Source: Candidatus Saccharimonadota bacterium
GTDB lineage: Bacteria; Patescibacteriota; Saccharimonadia; Saccharimonadales; Saccharimonadaceae
Direction of reading: 5' to 3'
Assembly: GCA_017533605.1 (NCBI GenBank)
Contig: JAFWKF010000001.1
Location: 62,001 to 126,000, forward strand
Length of the DNA stretch: 64,000 nt
A model generated the notes under the pieces. It was not told the origin of the DNA, ran no database searches, and saw only the letters and a program-made list of their open reading frames with translations. Position numbers and translations under genes: made by a program. Of the stretch, positions 8,720-51,395 are shown piece by piece (the first letter of the stretch is position 1; every line of letters starts with the position of its first letter).

Positions 8720-10162
8720 TTAAAATAGCGACTCGTAATATAATTTTAGTTCTTCGCCGATAAATTCGTCTTTATCGTAGATTTGTTCTAGCTCTTTTAA
8801 GAACTTAGGGGTTTGACGCTCTAAGCGCGCCTGGCGGTACTCTTCGTATTTGATGGTTTCGGATTCGGAAAGGGTGTTGGGGTAGTTACGACCTTTATAA
8901 TGCAGCAAAAGTTCTGGTAGGCGCTCATCGGTGAATTCGGGGTGAAAATCTGCTAGTCTGGCGGGTTCGGTGGTTCTGACTTTGGCGACTTTGGCGCGGT
9001 CTGGGTCGTTTAAAAAGCCATCATAAAGAGCAGCTTCTGGCTCCAAGGCAGGTGGAAATTCCGGCCTGTTTTCGTTTTCCTCACGCATAGTTTCGGCAAA
9101 GTCTGGGTGAGAAAGTAAAATCTTTAGGTTTTTCTCGGTGGTTTCTTTAGTCAAACCAATTTTAGACCAACCATCGCCGGAGTCTAACACGGAAAGAGGA
9201 GCAACGGCGGGGCATTTGTTAAAACAAAGTTCCTTGACAATTGGATAAAAACTCCGGGCGGGTCCTGATGGGGCGGGTCCTGACCTCGCATTTTCCCCCA
9301 TTTCGCCTGAGGGCTCAACGGGGGTCCCCCCAGCTCGGCCACCCGCCTCAGCGTCTGAACTCCCGCCGAGTAGTTTATCCAGATTGTAGCGCAGATCAAA
9401 TACGAGTATGTTGCCGTTGCGGGAGCTAGTGAGGGGGAAGGCGACAGTGGTTTTGTTAAACTCTGAAGGATATCGGCCGGAGGCATAGACGAATGGTTGC
9501 TTGTCGTCTAAATTAACCAGTTTTTTGACTGCATTTTTTTCGCGCATTTTAAAGAGAAAGTCGTAGAGTTTGGGCTGTTTTTCTTTAATTAGCTTAGCTA
9601 CCGCGATGGTGGCATAGACATCGCTCAGGGCGTCGTGGGCGTGTTCGTGCGAAACGCCGTTTAGTTTAGTGATAAGCTCTAGGCGGTTGGTGGCTTTGCC
9701 GTCTTCGGTGACAGGCCAGTTAATTCCCTCTGGTCTGAGTGCGCGGGTGAGACGCACGACGTCTAAAATATCCCAGCGGCTGCGACCGTCTTTCCACTCC
9801 CATTCGTAGGGGTCGTAGAAATTGCGCCAAAGTGTGGCGCGCATAAATTCGTCGTCAAAACGGACTGTGTTGTAACCCACGGCGATAGTGTTCGGAATAA
9901 AGATTTCTTCCGTGACATATTTACAAAACTCGGCCTCACTGATGCCTTCGCGCAGGGTTTCTTGTGGAGTTATTTTGGTGACCATAATGGCATAGGGGCT
10001 AGGCAAAACTTCGCTGGTCATTTTAACCAGGATATTAACCGGTTCGCCAATTGGTTCTAAGTCTAGATTGGTACGTTGGCCGGCAAACTGCATGATGCGA
10101 TCATCCCTGGGGTTCAGGCCACTGGTTTCTAGGTCATAAAAGAAAAAGGTTTTGTCATCCAT
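8720..10162 (-). CDS. sbcB: Exodeoxyribonuclease I
   Basis: A 480-residue 3'-5' single-strand DNA exonuclease of the DEDDh class, acting in recombination and mismatch repair. DLET at residues 10-13 gives the first two acidic ligands. VGYNTVRFDDEFMR gives the third, and HAHDALSDVYATI gives the His/Asp pair. The NKCPAV block of the SH3-like region is recognisable near residue 310. Between them, about residues 268-302 are an Ala/Gly/Pro-rich, GC-rich stretch encoded by a palindromic repeat, inserted without breaking the frame. The gene starts six bases after TGCTATAAT (10169-10174) directly behind the terminator of the upstream gene. Confidence 0.9.
   Translation of the reverse strand: MDDKTFFFYDLETSGLNPRDDRIMQFAGQRTNLDLEPIGEPVNILVKMTSEVLPSPYAIMVTKITPQETLREGISEAEFCKYVTEEIFIPNTIAVGYNTVRFDDEFMRATLWRNFYDPYEWEWKDGRSRWDILDVVRLTRALRPEGINWPVTEDGKATNRLELITKLNGVSHEHAHDALSDVYATIAVAKLIKEKQPKLYDFLFKMREKNAVKKLVNLDDKQPFVYASGRYPSEFNKTTVAFPLTSSRNGNILVFDLRYNLDKLLGGSSDAEAGGRAGGTPVEPSGEMGENARSGPAPSGPARSFYPIVKELCFNKCPAVAPLSVLDSGDGWSKIGLTKETTEKNLKILLSHPDFAETMREENENRPEFPPALEPEAALYDGFLNDPDRAKVAKVRTTEPARLADFHPEFTDERLPELLLHYKGRNYPNTLSESETIKYEEYRQARLERQTPKFLKELEQIYDKDEFIGEELKLYYESLF
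9255..9347. repeat. GC-rich palindromic element, copy A, inside sbcB
   Basis: The core 9272-9347 is bounded by GGCGGGT and ACCCGCC inverted ends and contains GCATTTTCC and GGGGGTCCCCC. Just outside it, 9256-9270 is a near-copy of 9271-9285 (GGGCGGGTCCTGAyy), a 15-base, five-codon tandem duplication. The copy at 61334-61413 shares CGGGTCCTG, GCATTTTCC, GGGGGnCCCCC and the inverted ends in the same order on the opposite strand. The base composition is far richer in G+C than the surrounding gene. Confidence 0.7.
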
Positions 10163-10180
10163 AGACTAATTATAGCATGA

Positions 10181-10206
10181 AAAACCCCGGTCTCTAAAGA
10201 CCGGGG
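10181..10206 (-). terminator. Intrinsic terminator of the 10219-10677 gene
   Basis: A nine-pair stem CCCCGGTCT / AGACCGGGG with loop CTAA is followed on the minus strand by TTTTTC. The T-run runs straight into the sbcB extended -10 box. Confidence 0.9.
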
Positions 10207-10218
10207 CAGGGTTAATAG

Positions 10219-10677
10219 TTACAGTTGGAGAATTCGCTCCAGCTTCTCGGCCTCCTCGTCAGCCTCTCGTTTGACTTCCTCGTCAATTTTTGAGCTTAAT
10301 ACCCGTTCCAGGCTATAAAACCGGATGCGGGACGAAAGGTCCTCAATTAGCATCAGTATGCAAGCATACATCACTGATACAAAGAAGACAAATATATAAG
10401 CCAAAATAATGGCGTATATGGGTGAGTCATCAGGGCCAAACTTCCCTAAAAAGAGTTGAAGAATGTCGCCGAGTTCGGCAATGAACAAAATAATACCGAA
10501 AGTGATTACACTGACATAAAACCAGCGATCAATGATTCTGTCGTTGAGCTTTCTGTCTTTTATTTGCAGGCCGTGCAACCTGAAACGGCTGCAACCGATC
10601 ATTGCCGCAATGGCCAATGATGCAAAGACAAAGACAATAAGAACTACCAATAAAATGTTATGAATAAGCTCGTACAT
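10219..10677 (-). CDS. Small integral membrane protein, orphan
   Basis: The 152-residue protein has a hydrophobic helix at about residues 5-29, a basic loop (SRFRLHGLQIKDRKL), a helix at about 50-75 and another at about 86-113. A charged coiled-coil-like C-terminus (about 125-152, ending EEAEKLERILQL) follows. No family is recognised. It stands alone between two terminators, with a TTGACT-17-TATAAT promoter, an 80-base leader and an AGGAGGG ribosome site. It shares this cassette style with the genes at 35742, 36310, 37757 and 51711. Confidence 0.7.
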   Translation of the reverse strand: MYELIHNILLVVLIVFVFASLAIAAMIGCSRFRLHGLQIKDRKLNDRIIDRWFYVSVITFGIILFIAELGDILQLFLGKFGPDDSPIYAIILAYIFVFFVSVMYACILMLIEDLSSRIRFYSLERVLSSKIDEEVKREADEEAEKLERILQL

Positions 10678-43839: not shown

Positions 43840-44202
43840 TTATTTCTTGCGAATAAAGAGCCCACGCCAATTTTTCTTTTGGCGATGTGGCTGAGACTCT
43901 AATTTGTAACGGCGAATTTGGCCAGTGAGTTTAGCTTCTACTAAATCTACCCCTGCAAAAACGTTAGAGCACTCATCTCTAGCAGCTAGTACTTTGCCGC
44001 CAGGAATATCCATTGCTACGGAGATTTCGTATTTGTCGGCCTTGTTTTTGCCAATTTCGGTAACGATAACTTTAGCAACTACGTCTTTTTTAGCATTGCG
44101 AGGGAGATAGCGGTCAAGTTTGCCAATACGTTTTTCGGCATATTTTTTAAAAGGTTCCTCAACCTTGTAACCGTTGCCGGTAACTTCAATTTTTTCAATC
44201 AT
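43840..44202 (-). CDS. hpf: Ribosome hibernation-promoting factor (short form)
   Basis: A 120-residue S30AE-family protein (VTGNGYKVEEPFKKYAEKRIGKLDRYLP, then beta-alpha-beta with a basic C-terminus) that blocks the decoding centre of idle ribosomes. It lacks the C-terminal dimerisation domain of long HPF. An AGGAGG site lies seven bases before the ATG, and the ATG shares a base with the serS stop (TAATG). Confidence 0.88.
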   Translation of the reverse strand: MIEKIEVTGNGYKVEEPFKKYAEKRIGKLDRYLPRNAKKDVVAKVIVTEIGKNKADKYEISVAMDIPGGKVLAARDECSNVFAGVDLVEAKLTGQIRRYKLESQPHRQKKNWRGLFIRKK

Positions 44203-45446
44203 TAGATTTCCTCCTTGTTGTTAAAATATGGCTTCAAAACTTCTGGAATTTTGAGTTTGCCATCTTTGGTGGCGTAGTTTTCAATCACGGCAACTAGAGT
44301 GCGAGCAAGCGAAACGGCGGTGCCGTTAAGTGTATGCAAAACTTCTACGGTGCCGTCTTTTCTGCGGACGCGGATGTTGAGGTTGCGAGCCTGAAAATCG
44401 GTACAGTTACTGCAACTGGTGAGCTCGCGGTAAGTTTGATCTACAGGTGACCAGTATTCAATGTCATATTTTTTAGCGGCTGGTGAACCAAGATCGCCAG
44501 CAGCGATATTAATTACACGATACGGAATCTTAAGAGCCTGCCAAATTTCTTCTTCTATAGAAAGAATTTCTTCGTGCATTTCTTTAGACTTCTCTGGAAC
44601 ACAGAAAATGTACATTTCTAGCTTATTAAATTGATGAACTCTAAACAAACCGCGGGTGTGTTTGCCGGCGGAGCCAGCTTCTTTACGGAAACAAGCCGAT
44701 AGACCGGCGTATTTTAAAGGCAAATCTTCTTCTGGGATGATTTCGTCCATGTGATAGCCGGTGAGAGCGATTTCGGCCGTGGCGATGAGAGCTAAATCTT
44801 CACCTTCAATGAAATATTCATCGGATTGGTCGGAAGTACGAGGGTTAAAACCGGTGCCTTCTAATACTTTAGACGAGACTAAATCTGGTACAGTGATAAA
44901 TTTAAAGCCTTTTTCGCAAACTTTTTGAATGCCAAATTGAATTAGAGCTTGTTCTAAGAGCGCGAGCTCGTTTTTAAGATAATAGAACTTAGCACCAGCA
45001 ACTTTGGCGCCACGTTCAAAATCTACCCAATCGCGACTGATAGCGTAGTCCAAGTGATCTACGCCTTCTTTCTTTTTGCCGCCCCAGTTTTTGACTTCTT
45101 TCGAGCATTCTTCGCCGCCAAGTGGCACATCGTCAAAAATGATGTTTGGTACGGATTTAAGCATAGTGTTACACTCGGCTTCAACTTTAACCAAATCTTC
45201 TTCTAATTTAGCTAGTTCGGCCTTAACTTTTTTGCCTTCTTCTATCAGGGCAGGAGCAGGCTTGCCGCCTTTCATTTTGGCGGCGATTTCGTTACGCTTT
45301 CGGCGTAATTCTTCTACTCTGGCAAGTTCTTTTTTGCGTTTATCGTCTAGTTTGATAACATCTTTGATATTAATTTTGTAGCCCTTTTCGCGAGCTGATT
45401 TTTCTACGAGCTCTAAATTGTCTCGGATAAACTTCACATCTAACAT
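44202..45446 (-). CDS. serS: Seryl-tRNA synthetase
   Basis: A 414-residue class II enzyme. The N-terminal 110 residues are the antiparallel coiled coil that holds the tRNA-Ser long arm. LIATAEIALTGYH is the serine pocket. Motif 2 is in ACFRKEAGSAGKHTRGLFRVHQFNKLEM and motif 3 in LNGTAVSLARTLVAVIENY. The ATG is seven bases after TGTTATAAT, so it is leaderless. It is co-transcribed with hpf. Confidence 0.96.
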   Translation of the reverse strand: MLDVKFIRDNLELVEKSAREKGYKINIKDVIKLDDKRKKELARVEELRRKRNEIAAKMKGGKPAPALIEEGKKVKAELAKLEEDLVKVEAECNTMLKSVPNIIFDDVPLGGEECSKEVKNWGGKKKEGVDHLDYAISRDWVDFERGAKVAGAKFYYLKNELALLEQALIQFGIQKVCEKGFKFITVPDLVSSKVLEGTGFNPRTSDQSDEYFIEGEDLALIATAEIALTGYHMDEIIPEEDLPLKYAGLSACFRKEAGSAGKHTRGLFRVHQFNKLEMYIFCVPEKSKEMHEEILSIEEEIWQALKIPYRVINIAAGDLGSPAAKKYDIEYWSPVDQTYRELTSCSNCTDFQARNLNIRVRRKDGTVEVLHTLNGTAVSLARTLVAVIENYATKDGKLKIPEVLKPYFNNKEEI

Positions 45447-45475
45447 ACTATTAATTATAACACATCTAAACTAAA

Positions 45476-46249
45476 CTAGGCGGCCGTTATTTTACTAAAT
45501 AGCTCTTGCCAAACCTTTAAATCTAGGTCACCGGGACGGACATCAGCTGAAATCCCGAGCGAATCAAAAACTGTTTTTAATTCTTGTTTTGATTTAAGCC
45601 CAGATAGATTATGAATCAGTTTTTTGCGGGGGGCTTTAAACCCAGTTTTAATTAAATCAAAGACTTCTTCTGAGATTTCAGGGGATTTTGGCTTCATAAT
45701 AATCACTTCACTATCCACTTTAGGTGACGGAGTAAACTCGGTTTTATCTACTACTGGACCAGCGGAGACTAAGGCGCGGTTTTTAACAAATAGTGAGAGT
45801 AAAGTCTCTTTTTCGCTTAAAATGCGTTCGGCGACCTCTTTTTGGACTAACAAAACAATTATAACTGGTGGGTTTTTGAGATTTAGGAGTTTTTCTATAA
45901 TGGGACTAGTAATATAATATGGAATATTGCCAGCCACGACATAGGGTTCTTTGATGCTATCAAAATCGTATTTTAAGATGTCATCATTTACGACTTTGAG
46001 GTTTTTGCCTGGGAAAGATTTAGGCAAATTATCTGCTAACCTCTTGTCGTATTCTACTGCGATTACTTTTCCAAAACGTTTTAAAAGCGATGAGGTAAGA
46101 GTGCCGAGCCCTGGTCCGATTTCTACGCATACTTCTGTTTTTTCGGAGTTTTGATCCGCGCTGAAATTTAGCGCCAAATCGGCGATTTCATCTAGTATTT
46201 CACGGTTTTTGAGCCAATGTTGGCCAAGAGATTTATTAGTACCAACCAT
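45476..46249 (-). CDS. rsmA: 16S rRNA dimethyladenosine transferase (KsgA/RsmA)
   Basis: A 257-residue SAM-dependent enzyme that dimethylates two adjacent adenines in the 3' hairpin of 16S rRNA. SLGQHWLKNREILDEI is the family start, VCVEIGPGLGTLTSSLL the SAM site, and VVAGNIPYYITSPIIEKLL the catalytic NIPY motif. It overlaps the Rpf-like gene by 14 bases and is its operon partner, an order also known in Actinobacteria and Firmicutes. Confidence 0.95.
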   Translation of the reverse strand: MVGTNKSLGQHWLKNREILDEIADLALNFSADQNSEKTEVCVEIGPGLGTLTSSLLKRFGKVIAVEYDKRLADNLPKSFPGKNLKVVNDDILKYDFDSIKEPYVVAGNIPYYITSPIIEKLLNLKNPPVIIVLLVQKEVAERILSEKETLLSLFVKNRALVSAGPVVDKTEFTPSPKVDSEVIIMKPKSPEISEEVFDLIKTGFKAPRKKLIHNLSGLKSKQELKTVFDSLGISADVRPGDLDLKVWQELFSKITAA

Positions 46250-47276
46250 GTGTGTACCACCAGGTTAGCGCCTGGTTCCATCCACCATAACGACCATTAA
46301 CATAACCAATCATCCAACGAATCTGAGTCACAGGGTTGGTGGCCCAGTCAGAACCAGCTGAAGCCATTTTGCTACCAGGAAGAGCCTGCGGGATGCCGTA
46401 AGCGCCCGAGCGGGAGTTAGAAGCATCGTAACGACAGCCACTTTCGTGGTAAATTAGATCAATTGCAGCGGCGAGATCTGCTTCTGAAACACCGGCCTCA
46501 CGAGCCCAGTTGGCACAGGTTTCGGCCTCTGGACGGATGGATTTCTTAGCCCCGACCGCTACAACACGAGAAACTGGTGCGCGGATGATTTCTTCGGAGA
46601 TTTTCTCGCGCGAAACTTCTTTATTATCTATATATAATACTTTGTAAGAAACTTTTTTAGCCCCGACTTCACCAAGCTGGCGAACCTCGGAGGTACCAAC
46701 TGGAAGCGTGACATCCGTCACAGTTTCTTCGGCGAAAGGTATTTCTTCTTCGGTAGTAATAGTGCGGCCACCATTTCTAGTGATGCTATAAACATTTGCC
46801 ACGCCACTCTCTAAGAAGTTAGTGTTAGGTAAAAACTCAATCTCGTCACCATCATAAACAGTAATACCGGCATCGGCCATGATAGTCTTGTAGTCATAAC
46901 TGGCGGTCATGAGGTATTTTTCAGTAGTGCCGTCTTTAATGATAACAGGGCGGGCACGGTATATATTAATAAAGTAATTATCCATATTAATCTCGGAGTC
47001 GTAGTTTGGTTCTACCTTATCGCCATCATTAATAATGATATTGGCGCGGGAAATTGCCTCACCTACGGTGGCGGCATCGGTTTTAATAGTGGTTTTGTTG
47101 CCATCATCATAAAAAGTGACGTATTTGGCGCCTTCGGTCTGGTAAGTACCTTGTTCTTCGTCGGTTTCAGCAAAAGTATTGCGAGAAGAGTGAATAATAA
47201 GCCCTGCAAAAAGTACGATAATTAAAATCGCTGCGATAAATAAGAGAACCTGGTCGGTTTTTCTCGCAAGTCTCAT
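46236..47276 (-). CDS. Resuscitation-promoting-factor-like wall lytic protein
   Basis: About 346 residues from the ATG at 47276; a GTG six codons earlier would lie across the -10 box. A signal anchor (about 9-29) is followed by two DUF348-like repeats (YDDGNKTTIKTDAATVGEAI; KDGTTEKYLMTASYDYKTIM), a G5 domain (TTEEEIPFAEETVTDVTLPVG) and a C-terminal lysozyme-like domain. That last domain has LIYHESGCRYDASNSRSGAYGIPQALPGSKM, with a Glu as likely catalytic residue. It should cut peptidoglycan of its own or of the host cell. TGCTATAAT is six bases before the ATG. Confidence 0.88.
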   Translation of the reverse strand: MRLARKTDQVLLFIAAILIIVLFAGLIIHSSRNTFAETDEEQGTYQTEGAKYVTFYDDGNKTTIKTDAATVGEAISRANIIINDGDKVEPNYDSEINMDNYFINIYRARPVIIKDGTTEKYLMTASYDYKTIMADAGITVYDGDEIEFLPNTNFLESGVANVYSITRNGGRTITTEEEIPFAEETVTDVTLPVGTSEVRQLGEVGAKKVSYKVLYIDNKEVSREKISEEIIRAPVSRVVAVGAKKSIRPEAETCANWAREAGVSEADLAAAIDLIYHESGCRYDASNSRSGAYGIPQALPGSKMASAGSDWATNPVTQIRWMIGYVNGRYGGWNQALTWWYTHGWY

Positions 47277-47303
47277 ATAAGTATTATAGCACACAAAGCA
47301 TAA

Positions 47304-47443
47304 AAATAAAAGTCCGTAGCGATTACGGGCTTTTATAAACTAATTCCTAGGTGGTGGTTATACAAGCCAAAACAGCTCTACACTCTCCACCCTTTTCTCC
47401 CAATAGTTCAGGCCTCTTTCAACGTTGGATCAGGTCCGAACCT
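47304..47443 (-). ncRNA. Candidate small RNA or cis-regulatory RNA upstream of the Rpf-like gene
   Basis: A promoter (47450-47477) and a strong terminator hairpin (47308-47334, 11 pairs, then ATTTTTA on the minus strand) bracket about 140 bases with no gene. The RNA can form AGGT-TCGG-ACCT at its 5' end, CAACGTTG, a long GGTGG / CCACC helix, and possibly AATTAGGT / ACCTA pairing of its ends. The terminator ends about 15 bases before the -10 box of the Rpf-like gene. It could be a free sRNA (a 6S-like role is conceivable) or a terminator-controlled leader. No known class matches. Confidence 0.5.
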
Positions 47444-47449
47444 AATTCT

Positions 47450-47477
47450 ATTTTAGCATAGGCTTATTGGTTGTCAA
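47450..47477 (-). promoter_or_regulatory. Promoter of the candidate small RNA
   Basis: TTGACA (47472-47477), 16 bases and TAAAAT (47450-47455) on the minus strand. No protein start codon with a plausible frame follows. The plus-strand DNA from 47478 to 47615 holds only AT-rich sequence and the TGTTATAAT promoter (47616-47621) of the next gene. Confidence 0.65.
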
Positions 47478-47627
47478 CCTTGTTTTTTAAGATTGTTTGT
47501 GTTGTAATATGTTTCTACTTTAACAGGGGTAAAAGTAAAAAACCGAACACTTTTGACTTGACATTATATTGATTTATTTTATTTATATTATGCTTATGGA
47601 AACGATTATGTATGTTATAATTCTTTT

Positions 47628-48242
47628 ATGAACTGGAGGAAGTGGTGCGATGAGTTTGTTTTGGCGGGTAAAGGTATTTTGCTAGCGTCCAAAGAAAAGC
47701 GATTCTGGTTTGGTTTCGTACCGGCTTTCTTGTTTTTTGGACTTTTAATGAACTTGCTGGCTGGTGGTTTTTCTAAGTTTAGTTTGATGGGCACGGTGGG
47801 TTTTTTAGGAAGTTTGAAAATCATTGACGATAGTTTTTTGGCGATTTTTGGCGTGAATCAGCCGTTTTTGGATTGGTTACCGATCTTTTGTATCGCGCTT
47901 TTGCAAGGAGTTTTGATTGGTTTGATTGTGTTTTTGTGGAATAAAAAACGCGAGCAAAACTCGGCTAATGTAGAACAAGCTGGGATAATTACCGGATTAA
48001 TCGCGCTTGGTGCTGGCTGTCCTACTTGTGGCACTACTTTGCTTACGCCACTGCTGGGCGCAATCTTTTCCACAGGGAGCCTGGCGATTGCGGGGACAAT
48101 CTCCGCGATTGTAACGGTTTTAGCGATTATCATTGCAATTTTGTCTTTAAAGCGGCTAGGACTAGAAGCATATGTTACAATAATTAACGAAAAGTTTCTC
48201 GCAAGGAGAGCCAAAAAGGAGGCAGATGAAAAAAGCTCTTAG
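47628..48242 (+). CDS. Integral membrane protein with a CPTC motif, possible thiol-disulfide partner
   Basis: A 204-residue protein with hydrophobic segments at about 27-46, 53-75, 83-104, 117-150 and 152-174. CPTC (Cys131-Cys134) is in GLIALGAGCPTCGTTLLTPLLGA, at or in the membrane. The next gene overlaps it by 17 bases and encodes a DsbA-like oxidoreductase. I infer that this protein may exchange electrons with it, as DsbB, VKOR or CcdA do elsewhere, but I do not recognise it as one of those families. The gene is leaderless (TATAAT then six bases then ATG). Confidence 0.6.
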   Translation: MNWRKWCDEFVLAGKGILLASKEKRFWFGFVPAFLFFGLLMNLLAGGFSKFSLMGTVGFLGSLKIIDDSFLAIFGVNQPFLDWLPIFCIALLQGVLIGLIVFLWNKKREQNSANVEQAGIITGLIALGAGCPTCGTTLLTPLLGAIFSTGSLAIAGTISAIVTVLAIIIAILSLKRLGLEAYVTIINEKFLARRAKKEADEKSS

Positions 48243-48915
48243 AATTATCGGGATTGTGGTGGTAGTGGTGGTGATTTTTGCAGCAATTATTGCTAGTATG
48301 ACAACTAAACCTTCTAATGCGGAAAAGGTTTGGGACAAAGATATGACAATAGGTAATATGGATGCAAAAAACTATTTTATCGTTTATTCAGATTTGGTTT
48401 GCCCATATTGTATTGCTTTTGAAAATGCTATCGTTGAAAACGAAGAAGCGTTTTTGAAATATGTTGAGGAAAACGATATTTTATATGAAGTAAGGTTGTC
48501 TGATTTCCTTTATGAATACGGTGAGGCAAAACCAATTAATTCACGCTACTCCGCAGTAGCAACTTACTGCGCTAAAAATGAAGGTAAGTTTTGGGATTAT
48601 TACAATTTAGCTATTACTCGGGTCTGGAACGATTATTTTAAGGATTCCGGAAAATCCGCCTTTACTAAGATGGCTAGCCTTGGCAAGGAATATTGGGTGA
48701 AGATTGGTAAAGACGTAGGACTGAGCGAAGAGTTTGAAAATTGTGTGAAAAATGATGAACCCATTGCCGAGATCCAAGAAAACGCTGCTAAATCCGCCAA
48801 ACTCACTAACGGAATGCCATATTTTAAATTTAATAGTTACACCAACTCCGGATTTGATCTTTCGTGGGGTTGGGAATATGTGCAAATGTATTTCCAAGCT
48901 GGGCTAGAAAGCTAA
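48226..48915 (+). CDS. Membrane-anchored DsbA-like thiol-disulfide oxidoreductase
   Basis: A 229-residue protein with an N-terminal anchor (about 5-25) and an extracytoplasmic thioredoxin-like fold. The active site is CPYC (Cys59, Cys62) in YSDLVCPYCIAFENAIV. The cis-Pro is in NGMPYFKF near residue 197, and a helical insert lies between them. It should form or shuffle disulfides in exported proteins. An AAAGGAGG site lies inside the end of the preceding gene, so translation is coupled. Confidence 0.85.
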   Translation: MKKALRIIGIVVVVVVIFAAIIASMTTKPSNAEKVWDKDMTIGNMDAKNYFIVYSDLVCPYCIAFENAIVENEEAFLKYVEENDILYEVRLSDFLYEYGEAKPINSRYSAVATYCAKNEGKFWDYYNLAITRVWNDYFKDSGKSAFTKMASLGKEYWVKIGKDVGLSEEFENCVKNDEPIAEIQENAAKSAKLTNGMPYFKFNSYTNSGFDLSWGWEYVQMYFQAGLES

Positions 48916-48916
48916 A

Positions 48917-50113
48917 CTATTTATTCTCTATTCCGGTAAAATGAAAAATTTTTTCGTCTTTGATTGCGTCTGGTAAATAGTTTTTGTCTAAATGAAAACC
49001 AGATTCCCATTTTTGGCCTTTGCCGTATCCTAATTCTTTCATTAGTTTGGTTGGGGCGTTACGAAGCCAAGTAGGGACAGGTTCACCACGGGTCTTACGA
49101 GCTAAATCTTGAGCTTTAAACCAGGCATCGGCAGAGTCGCGATTCTTCTTGGATTTAGAAAGTGCCACACAGGTATGAGCCAATATTAAACCAGACTCCG
49201 GCATGCCTACACGCTCTACGGCCTGAAAACAGGCGGTGGCGAGACTTAAAGCACCGTTGCCAGCTAAACCAATATCTTCGGAAGCAAAAATCACCATACG
49301 GCGAGCAATAAACTTAGGGTCTTCGCCAGCTTCTACCATCCGCGCCAAATAGTATAGAGCAGCATCGGTGTCTGAACCACGCATGGACTTGATAAAAGCC
49401 GAGATGGTGTCGTAGTGCTTGTCGCCTTTTTTGTCGTAGCCGGGCATTTTTTTGCCGGCAGCTTCTAAAACTACATTTTCATTGACTTTTTCAGATAAAG
49501 AAAGAGCAAGTTCAAGGTCACCAAGAGCGGAGCGGGCATCACCACCGGATAATTCTGCGAGAAGATCTATAGCGCCTTTGGTAACTCTTTTAGTGGCTTT
49601 TTCGGCTTTAATGGCGCGTTTTATAACTTCGGTAATGGCGGCTTTAGAGAGCGGGGCAATGACTACCACTCTTGAGCGCGACAAAAGCGGAGAAATTACT
49701 TCAAAAGAGGGGTTTTCGGTAGTGGCGCCGATTAAAATGATTAAACCAGATTCAACGTGCGGCAAAAAAGCATCCTGCTGGGCTTTGTTAAAACGATGAA
49801 TTTCATCTACAAAAAGAACTGTGCGAATCTGGAGATTCCAGTTAGTCTTAGCGCGCTTTACTACTTCTTCTACATCTTTCTTGCCGGCAGTAACCGCAGA
49901 CATCTCTACAAAATCCGCTTTAAATTCGTGAGCTAGAATTCTAGCGAGAGTCGTTTTACCAGTGCCTGGAGGGCCCCAAAAAATCAGATTGACTGGCTCA
50001 CCTTTTTTAACGATTTCAGTTAAAATCTTGCCCTCACCAATAATCTCATCTTGACCTAAAACTTCAGAAAGTTTAGTAGGTCGCATCCGTTCCGCTAGGG
50101 GTACTCTATTCAT
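48917..50113 (-). CDS. rarA: Replication-associated recombination ATPase RarA (MgsA)
   Basis: About 398 residues from the ATG at 50113 (MNRVPLAERMRP). An in-frame ATG 13 codons upstream is rejected because the TATAAT box lies between. A clamp-loader-like AAA+ ATPase that acts at stalled forks. Walker A is in FWGPPGTGKTTLAR, Walker B in VLFVDEIHRFNKAQQDAFLP, and sensor 1 in LIGATTENPSFEV. The C-terminal domain begins at DKKGDKHYDTISAFIKSMRGSD. Leaderless, seven bases after TATAAT. It converges with the DsbA-like gene one base away. Confidence 0.94.
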   Translation of the reverse strand: MNRVPLAERMRPTKLSEVLGQDEIIGEGKILTEIVKKGEPVNLIFWGPPGTGKTTLARILAHEFKADFVEMSAVTAGKKDVEEVVKRAKTNWNLQIRTVLFVDEIHRFNKAQQDAFLPHVESGLIILIGATTENPSFEVISPLLSRSRVVVIAPLSKAAITEVIKRAIKAEKATKRVTKGAIDLLAELSGGDARSALGDLELALSLSEKVNENVVLEAAGKKMPGYDKKGDKHYDTISAFIKSMRGSDTDAALYYLARMVEAGEDPKFIARRMVIFASEDIGLAGNGALSLATACFQAVERVGMPESGLILAHTCVALSKSKKNRDSADAWFKAQDLARKTRGEPVPTWLRNAPTKLMKELGYGKGQKWESGFHLDKNYLPDAIKDEKIFHFTGIENK

Positions 50114-50231
50114 AATATATATTATATAAGTTTTTGGGGAGAATTCAAACATAATAACTTTACAAAAAATCTTTACAAAAAAGAATTTTTTATGCTAAAA
50201 TGAAATTAATATTAATAAAAGGAGTTATCAA

Positions 50232-50684
50232 ATGTTAAACTTTGCATATACCAGTAGCTATTATGACTACGAAGATATACTCAGTAGTGGTAGTAGTTCA
50301 GCGGCATCATCTATGGCAGGTGCTACTATTTGGATGATTATCGCAGCCATCCTTGCTATCGTTGGTGGTATTTTGGTTTATTTCTTATTCGTAAGAAGCA
50401 AAACTGAACCAAAAGGTAAATTTGCAAAATGGCTTAAAGACTTTCTAGCCTTCAAGGTGATGTGGATTGAGCCAATCCTTAAAGTTGTTTATTACATCGC
50501 TACAATTTATGTAATTCTCTTCTCCTTTACATTCTTAGCATTGGGTGGAGTTGGCGTTCTTTCCTTCTTCCTATGTTTGATCCTCGGGCCAATCTGTGTC
50601 CGCTTAGCTTATGAAATGACCATGATGTTCATTATGATCTGGCGCAACACTAGAGACATTGCTGAAAGCACCAAGAAAAAATAA
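50232..50684 (+). CDS. DUF4282-like membrane protein
   Basis: A 150-residue protein: an aromatic and Ser-rich start, a membrane helix at about 31-52, then after a FLAFKVMWIEPILKVVYYIA stretch two more helices (about 76-93 and 97-120). It ends in RLAYEMTMMFIMIWRNTRDIAE, which resembles the DUF4282 domain. Function unknown. It has a TTTACA-18-TAAAAT promoter, an AGGAG site and its own terminator, so it is monocistronic and probably well expressed. Confidence 0.6.
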   Translation: MLNFAYTSSYYDYEDILSSGSSSAASSMAGATIWMIIAAILAIVGGILVYFLFVRSKTEPKGKFAKWLKDFLAFKVMWIEPILKVVYYIATIYVILFSFTFLALGGVGVLSFFLCLILGPICVRLAYEMTMMFIMIWRNTRDIAESTKKK

Positions 50685-50702
50685 TCCTTTAAGGTTCATT
50701 AG

Positions 50703-50728
50703 TCCCCCACAATAGTGGGGGATTTTTG
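50703..50728 (+). terminator. Intrinsic terminator of the DUF4282-like gene
   Basis: TCCCCCAC / GTGGGGGA stem with loop AATA followed by TTTTTG, just upstream of the murI promoter. Confidence 0.9.
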
Positions 50729-50753
50729 TTTGGTTTTTTGATATAATTTTGGT

Positions 50754-51395
50754 ATGAAAATAGGAATATTTGATTCCGGCAAAGGCGGAACCACAATTTA
50801 TCAGGCCATAAAAAAGGTTTTACCAAACGAAGAATATCTTTATGTTGCTGATTCTAAAAACTGCCCTTATGGTGAAAAATCTTATACACGGTTGATGGAG
50901 ATTGTGACAGACATCGTGGAAAATTTAAAAGAATGGGGGGCGACAATTATTGTAATTGCATGCAATACTGCCACAACGAAATGTATCAGAAAGCTACGCA
51001 AAATGTATCCCGAGCTTAAGTTTGTAGGGACGGAGCCCGCGATTAAACAGGCGGTGGATTCTGACGCAAAAAACATTTTAGTGATGGCGACCCCTGGGAC
51101 TATTAAATCTGAGCGCACTCGGAGTTTGCTAAAAGAAAACCAAAAAGAGGGGCAGAATATTAAGCTCCTGGCTTGCCCTGGGCTCGCCGATGCGGTGGAA
51201 TTTGATACTGGTATAGATCAAAAACTTGATGAGCTATTAAGCGGCGAGAGAGAATATGACGCCGTAGTTCTTGGCTGCACGCATTATTCTCTGATTAAAG
51301 ATAAAATTCAGAAATACTTCCCTGAGGCGGAGCTAATTGATGGCTGTGACGGTGTAGCAAGCCAGGTGTTAAAACTCACAAAAAATAGAACCTAA
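50754..51395 (+). CDS. murI: Glutamate racemase
   Basis: A 213-residue enzyme, shorter than the usual 260 or so, that supplies D-Glu for MurD. GIFDSGKGGTTIYQAI is the start. The two catalytic Cys are in VIACNTATTKC and VLGCTHYSLIKD. DSKNCPYGEKS is the substrate-binding block. The ATG is six bases after TATAAT (50742-50747), so it is leaderless. The 3' end meets the tRNA terminator head-on. Confidence 0.9.
   Translation: MKIGIFDSGKGGTTIYQAIKKVLPNEEYLYVADSKNCPYGEKSYTRLMEIVTDIVENLKEWGATIIVIACNTATTKCIRKLRKMYPELKFVGTEPAIKQAVDSDAKNILVMATPGTIKSERTRSLLKENQKEGQNIKLLACPGLADAVEFDTGIDQKLDELLSGEREYDAVVLGCTHYSLIKDKIQKYFPEAELIDGCDGVASQVLKLTKNRT

Follow-up and report, generated by a model that had tools for sequence, protein, structure and literature searches.

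What is encoded at 47304–47477 of the window, the whole 64,000-nt stretch of Saccharibacterial DNA analysed here, immediately ahead of an Rpf-like lytic gene? The initial annotation had read a TTGACA-16-TAAAAT promoter, a unit of about 140 bases closed by a terminator, and a gap of about 15 bases to the −10 box of the Rpf-like gene. It had left two options, an independent small RNA or a terminator-controlled leader of the lytic gene. Our analysis indicates that the segment is very probably a real small RNA gene, conserved across one genus of gut Saccharibacteria. Its predicted transcript, RNA A, would be an independent small RNA of ∼140 nt, made from a strong promoter of its own and closed by its own terminator, and it contains a segment complementary to a second small RNA, RNA B. 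The features of the locus, in window coordinates, are:

47472–47477, minus strand: −35 box TTGACA of RNA A (promoter scan; kept in relatives)
47450–47460, minus strand: extended −10 box TATGCTAAAAT of RNA A (promoter scan; near-invariant among relatives)
47455–47450, minus strand: TAAAAT of RNA A, inside TATGCTAAAAT with TG ahead; the spacer to TTGACA is 16
47304–47443, minus strand: predicted transcript of RNA A, with the putative start ∼7 nt past the −10 box
47339–47449, minus strand: core of RNA A matching covariance model R1, which was built from the core itself plus relatives
47405–47442, minus strand: hairpin P1, with the conserved loop CGTTGAAAG at 47424–47416
47349–47392, minus strand: hairpin P2, GGGTGG (47392–47387) paired with CCACCT (47354–47349), enclosing the B-complementary segment
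47364–47385, minus strand: 22-nt segment GAGTGTAGAGCTGTTTTGGCTT complementary to RNA B (pattern and duplex analyses)
47341–47351, minus strand: conserved 3′ motif CCTAGGAATTA, ahead of the terminator (alignments of relatives)
47306–47336, minus strand: intrinsic terminator hairpin of RNA A (scan and fold), with a T-run to 47304
47283–47288, minus strand: TATAAT of the Rpf-like gene, extended TGCTATAAT, 6 nt ahead of the ATG at 47276 and starting 15 bases past the T-run of RNA A
46236–47276, minus strand: Rpf/YabE-like gene (DUF348, G5, weak lysozyme-like C-terminus), a neighbour outside the RNA gene
45476–46249: ksgA/rsmA-like gene (named by eye), overlapped by the Rpf/YabE-like gene

The promoter of RNA A was the best promoter-like match (11/12) in a scan of 44000–51000. 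Weaker promoter-like matches in the same interval numbered 15, against 14.1 expected, and because this chance rate is high the scan by itself proves nothing. The promoter proposed in the initial annotation, which gave no strand, was recovered at 47477–47472 and 47455–47450 on the minus strand. The ∼140-base unit also held up: its terminator hairpin (approximately 47336–47306, T-run to 47304) has 12 pairs around one mismatch in the single-sequence fold, where 11 had been counted, and is present in both the minimum and the centroid folds, while the scan gives its inner 5 pairs. The distance to the −10 box of the Rpf-like gene, about 15 bases, had also been given correctly: the T-run stops at 47304 and the TATAAT of that gene lies at 47288–47283.

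As a single sequence RNA A folds unexceptionally (z −1.23, with 25 of 200 shuffles equally good), and the argument that it is real rests on comparison: relatives have this promoter, these hairpins and the 3′ motif as well, and P1 covaries. A DNA search of 60 relatives gave matches in 18, all from the same genus, of which one (G014) spans only the last 35 query bases. Covariance model R1, built from 7 sequences, matched up to 112 of 147 genomes of the genus; this is an upper bound, as in at least one genome, G023, the sole match is the RNA B locus. In a set of genomes drawn from the whole order, a broader model, R2, built from 32 sequences, matched 38 of the 43 that belong to the genus (one of them, G027, at the B locus) and none of the 251 others. 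It also gave no match in six family genomes of other genera at E values up to 0.5. The absence of RNA A outside the genus is judged from R2, a model that may miss diverged copies. The genus is probably Nanosyncoccus, a name that we infer.

Lack of conservation of the helices in relatives had been put forward in the initial annotation as one observation that would discredit the unit. Across 32 aligned sequences, P1 instead shows compensatory changes, with both partners altered in 7 of its 10 pairs, and this check did not discredit the unit. The covariation score for the whole structure was 0.333, against at most 0.134 when it was slid by 1–3 columns, in an alignment that was fitted to the RNA A model and hence favours structure. 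P2 is paired in 96.9% of cells, but is nearly invariant and changes on one side only, and is therefore only weakly tested. In the same 32 sequences, 2 of the 4 pairs of a small inner helix change on both sides. An extra insert lies between P1 and P2 in L302 (G126), L315 (G123), G003 and G025. Coding by RNA A as a small reading frame was considered and rejected, as the frame across the conserved segment is broken in relatives L004 and L013 (by eye).

We then asked what the position beside the Rpf-like gene implies. Among 49 loci tried, RNA A was recognised with its flanks in 46, and an rpf homologue lies downstream in 42 of these. This is what would be expected if RNA A were a terminator-controlled leader (a riboswitch or attenuator) of the Rpf-like gene, and in Mycobacterium tuberculosis an RNA switch is described ahead of the rpfB-ksgA pair (PMC6009663, as far as the available text goes); here, rpf likewise overlaps a ksgA-like gene. 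Such a leader should be continuous with the rpf mRNA and rpf should depend on read-through, which does not appear to be the case. In 41 of the 42 relatives, rpf has a −10 box of its own 4–8 nt before its start codon, and in the remaining one (G112) the box is slightly farther away. In the other 4 of the 46 loci, what lies beyond RNA A is different: tRNA genes in G016, a hydrolase-like gene in G070 and G146, and unrelated sequence in G079. Moreover, in relative L009 the interval from RNA A to the rpf promoter holds no terminator hairpin, the B-complementary segment stops ahead of the terminator, and no riboswitch family matches RNA A. We consider a leader very unlikely. Of the two options in the initial annotation, the independent small RNA is thus the one that survived, and rpf appears to be a neighbour of RNA A with its own promoter rather than its target. 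Since RNA A carries an antisense copy of RNA B, it probably binds B rather than controlling the adjacent cell-wall gene.

Several other features of the neighbourhood were observed. The gene order in window 44202–47276 (Rpf/YabE-like, ksgA/rsmA-like and serS-like, the last two named by eye) resembles the mycobacterial rpfB-ksgA arrangement, to the extent that this is described in the accessible part of PMC6009663. In L032 and L031 (G070 and G146), RNA A leads into the hydrolase-like gene, which has a strong ribosome-binding site, with no evident terminator between them (by eye), as if the RNA A promoter had been borrowed by that gene. Upstream of RNA A in most relatives is a gene pair, a membrane protein and a Thioredoxin_4 (thioredoxin-like) gene, which occupies 47628–48915 in the window and has its own −10-like box immediately ahead of the ATG. 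Finally, at 47500–47600 and in many relatives there is a shared sequence, AACAG(G/A)GGT...AAAAACCGAACA, that is divergent from RNA A and follows an extended −10-like box, TATGTTnTAATAT, on the plus strand; this element may represent a further small RNA or a site bound by a protein.

To place RNA A among described families, the window was searched with the Rfam models. At gathering scores only three tRNAs were found in the whole window, and no family for RNA A. At E values up to 10, the RNA A stretch gave six weak matches, all below the gathering scores of their families; SRP, tmRNA, RNase P and T-box were not among them, in agreement with what had been judged by eye in the initial annotation. 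Of the models it had suggested, neither ydaO (c-di-AMP riboswitch) nor 6S matched, the former at gathering score or at E up to 10 and the latter likewise even at E up to 10. Models RF00169 and RF01854 for SRP RNA had no match in the window, nor in 40 and 36 Saccharibacterial genomes, and 6S RNA (RF00013) was found above cut-off in none of 36 genomes, with one weak match in a different family (G037). As the Rfam models find none, the SRP RNA of the Saccharibacterial order is either highly diverged or absent.

These gaps bear on the proposal that RNA A has a housekeeping role, as a diverged form of SRP RNA, 6S RNA or the like, and that its match to B is incidental. The wide occurrence of A within the genus and its strong, conserved promoter speak for this, as do the missing SRP and 6S RNAs. 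SRP RNA is characterized by domain IV and 6S RNA by a long bulged rod; RNA A has neither, and matches no Rfam family. It is also confined, by R2, to the genus (0 of 251 order genomes outside it), and it co-varies with RNA B. A housekeeping role is, on this evidence, most improbable.

The main feature of RNA A, complementarity to another conserved small RNA encoded at an unlinked site, was invisible to the initial annotation. It emerged from the R1 searches, whose weak second matches were traced to the complementary strand of a different small RNA gene, that of RNA B. This gene has a promoter of the form TTGACA/TATTAT, and the RNA (∼110 nt) comprises a 5′ hairpin, an A-rich stretch that is unpaired and ends in UAGCCAAAAUAACUCCACACUCUAC, and a terminator hairpin. 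Its position in this genome is:

G000:C4:10564-10671 (L202:3565-3672), minus strand: RNA B, convergent with the tmRNA gene at 10144-10499

RNA B adjoins YifB-like and IF-3 genes here, and is unlinked to RNA A, the two being on contigs C4 and C1 of the same assembly. In many genomes the YifB gene is not beside it, and the gene neighbours on its promoter side vary between lineages, as if a block had been inverted. Twelve RNA B-type loci had no match in Rfam; A and B are thus two RNA families without an Rfam match.

Model R3 of RNA B, built from 26 sequences, matched 41 of 43 genus genomes and 61 of 64 other genomes of the family (102 of 107 for the family as a whole), together with 4 of 187 others, one of which (G231) appears false on reading. 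RNA B therefore seems to be retained by almost every member of the family, and traces of it occur in other families. Outside the genus the promoter, the 5′ hairpin and the CUCGCAG loop of the terminator are kept, and most of the family members read have a CUCCAC core. Stretches with the exact RNA B 22-mer numbered 108; among the matches listed (80), all titles were Saccharibacteria save two, an 'uncultured bacterium' (RUG10634) and Candidatus Nanosyncoccus alces, and as the search was for the exact 22-mer, its invariance there is partly by selection.

The terminator of RNA B has 35 stem types among 131 distinct copies around the constant CUCGCAG loop, which the scan that gave these copies required. 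With the stem varying on both sides of a constant loop, RNA B is under strong constraint. A hairpin with this loop (CTCGCAG) and at least 5 stem pairs is not found in the window. A looser search of 904,547 bases gave 160 hairpins, two of them in the window; 106 of the 160 are RNA B, and the loop as a general terminator feature was accordingly rejected. It does also occur in some RNA A terminators (G001, G009 and G088 in the search; G029 and G101 on inspection by eye). A GGACTCGCAGC hairpin that recurs proved to lie in the reading frame of a small membrane protein and was discarded.

The sequence UAGCCAAAAUAACUCCACACUC of RNA B is the reverse complement of GAGUGUGGAGUUAUUUUGGCUA, and RNA A has GAGUGUAGAGCUGUUUUGGCUU at 47385–47364. 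The same-sense sequence of the RNA A 22-mer is at G000:C4:10605-10626 on the plus strand, RNA B being read from the other strand. The complementary segment is the best-conserved part of RNA A and meets the unpaired stretch of RNA B over 22 nt, extending up to ∼45 nt: in some genomes, GUUUUGACC in RNA A matches GGUCAAAAC of RNA B beside the 22-mer, which brings the antisense similarity to ∼45 nt, in register (by eye). Searching 60 genomes with a degenerate 22-mer at up to 3 mismatches gave one or two sites in each of 25 genomes, all within the genus (25 of 36), with a B site in 24 genomes and an A site in 16. Of the 24 B sites, 22 were exact and two had one mismatch, and in most genomes a single position of the 22-mer is mismatched, with A in RNA A against C in RNA B. 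The reversed control pattern gave one match in each of 2 of the 60 genomes (G044 and G056).

Duplex energies were calculated for 23 cognate pairs and then for 48, with 64 A and 63 B sequences recognised. The cognate duplex was more stable than those formed with all 200 shuffles of A in 38 of 48 pairs and failed this comparison in 10; G004 did not beat its shuffles in the run of 23. When cognate and mismatched partners were compared for 41 distinct loop-bearing pairs, leaving out five genomes in which A has no B-complementary loop, the cognate mean was −34.7 kcal/mol against −32.6 kcal/mol for mismatched pairs, a difference reached in 0 of 20,000 permutations. Individual changes in the two RNAs are also associated. 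UAUA is present in A in 8 of 12 genomes where B has UAUAGCC and in none of 31 others (p 3e-6). UGACC is present in A in 6 of 23 genomes where B has GGUCAAAA and in none of 20 others (p 0.02). Both tests treat genomes as independent, and three of the eight UAUA genomes belong to one clade. The pairing of A and B, including its co-variation across species, is strongly supported by these sequence comparisons.

How might the two RNAs act? The extended, conserved complementarity expected between a sponge, or anti-sRNA, and its sRNA is present here, although absent in some lineages, with B itself a presumed sRNA. On balance, we favour RNA A as a dedicated antagonist (sponge) of RNA B. In this mechanism B would be a trans-acting regulatory RNA with its unpaired C/U-rich stretch as the binding site, and A and B would both be transcribed and meet in the cell. 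The large loop of P2 in RNA A, which in most of the genus holds a 20–45 nt antisense copy of B, would contact the unpaired stretch of B, and the contact could then zip into a long imperfect duplex, either removing B from action or exposing it to a double-strand RNase.

The pairing fits equally well with A being a target of B and not a sponge. Here A would be the effector, working via P1 and the GG-rich strand of P2, and B the regulator whose pairing switches A off. Consistent with this, P1 is retained in lineages without the B-complementary loop, and B is the more widespread of the two (102 of 107 family genomes), A being detected only in the genus. It leaves unexplained the constraint on B outside the genus, or where A is loop-less, and we regard it as rather doubtful.

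RNA A with P1 but without the B-complementary loop was found in at least 8 genomes (G101, G002, G320, G017 and G067 in the duplex run; G084, G022 and G157 by eye), and RNA B keeps its stretch there. B must therefore have other partners, and A another role via P1. In a tree of a neighbouring protein (113 columns, 37 of 38 rows, G126 being dropped as not found), 22 loop-bearing genomes fall in one clade with a single loop-less genome, G101. The other 7 loop-less rows are outside this clade, G091 having been entered as loop-less despite a weak B match, and the loop-bearing G016 and G034 are on long unresolved branches. With 9 of its 34 inner branches well supported, the tree weakly suggests that the B-complementary loop was gained inside the genus.

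Two further candidate partners of RNA B were rejected. The E. coli/Bacillus-type 23S rRNA sequence suggested a match to the AACUCCACA core of RNA B. The 23S sequences of five family genomes differ at this point and elsewhere offer only 7–8 nt matches; five genus genomes returned no 23S. At window 9963 there is a stretch of 16 nt that matches the B complement; it falls within an exonuclease-like gene, on the non-coding strand, and the exonuclease-like mRNA therefore resembles B and would not pair with it.

Returning to RNA A as an antagonist, a tentative history can be proposed, in which this is a two-RNA circuit native to Saccharibacteria: B would be old, and A, at a distant locus, would have gained an antisense copy of the B core in its P2 loop in one genus and thereby become a co-evolving antagonist. 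We see this as possible rather than probable. If true, it would be a trans-encoded sponge that evolved by capturing an sRNA's own antisense, in ultra-small bacteria, and, provided that A is a sponge, loop-bearing and loop-less species form a natural series for sponge emergence. Regulation in the Patescibacteria is little explored, and this genome offers two RNA families with exact coordinates for probing, one of them (B) nearly universal in its family and the other (A) tied to it through sequence co-variation. No description of an sRNA circuit in Saccharibacteria was found among titles and opening abstracts of the open-licence literature, which is not proof of novelty.

Comparison with known systems separates RNA A from the rpf-associated riboregulators. 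The M. tuberculosis rpfB switch is, in the accessible part of its description, the 5′ part of the rpfB mRNA and toggles between terminated and antiterminated forms (PMC6009663). RNA A resembles it in being a short terminator-bearing RNA right before an rpf-ksgA pair, a likeness of position alone; unlike rpfB, rpf here has its own near-leaderless promoter. The same source, in the portion available, places the c-di-AMP (ydaO) riboswitch upstream of rpfA. RNA A is likewise upstream of an rpf-type gene, but differs in having no Rfam ydaO match (PMC6009663).

The proposed action of A has closer counterparts. An sRNA sponge of Vibrio cholerae, as presented in the accessible part of PMC9732341, is a dedicated RNA decoy of an sRNA, which is the action that we propose for A; the differences are that A and B have no known link to Hfq and come from a phylum for which the open-licence titles and opening abstracts gave no sRNA circuit. 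In Campylobacter jejuni, CJnc190 and CJnc180 are a trans-acting sRNA and its base-pairing RNA antagonist, encoded on opposite strands of one locus (PMC8687705, from the available text). They share with the proposed roles of B and A the combination of two small RNAs, a regulator and an RNA antagonist. The Campylobacter antagonist is encoded in cis, whereas A and B are separate genes; A and B pair imperfectly, with co-variation from species to species, and a further covarying hairpin is present in A. Going by what that text describes, CJnc190/CJnc180 would be the closest described arrangement to RNA A and RNA B.
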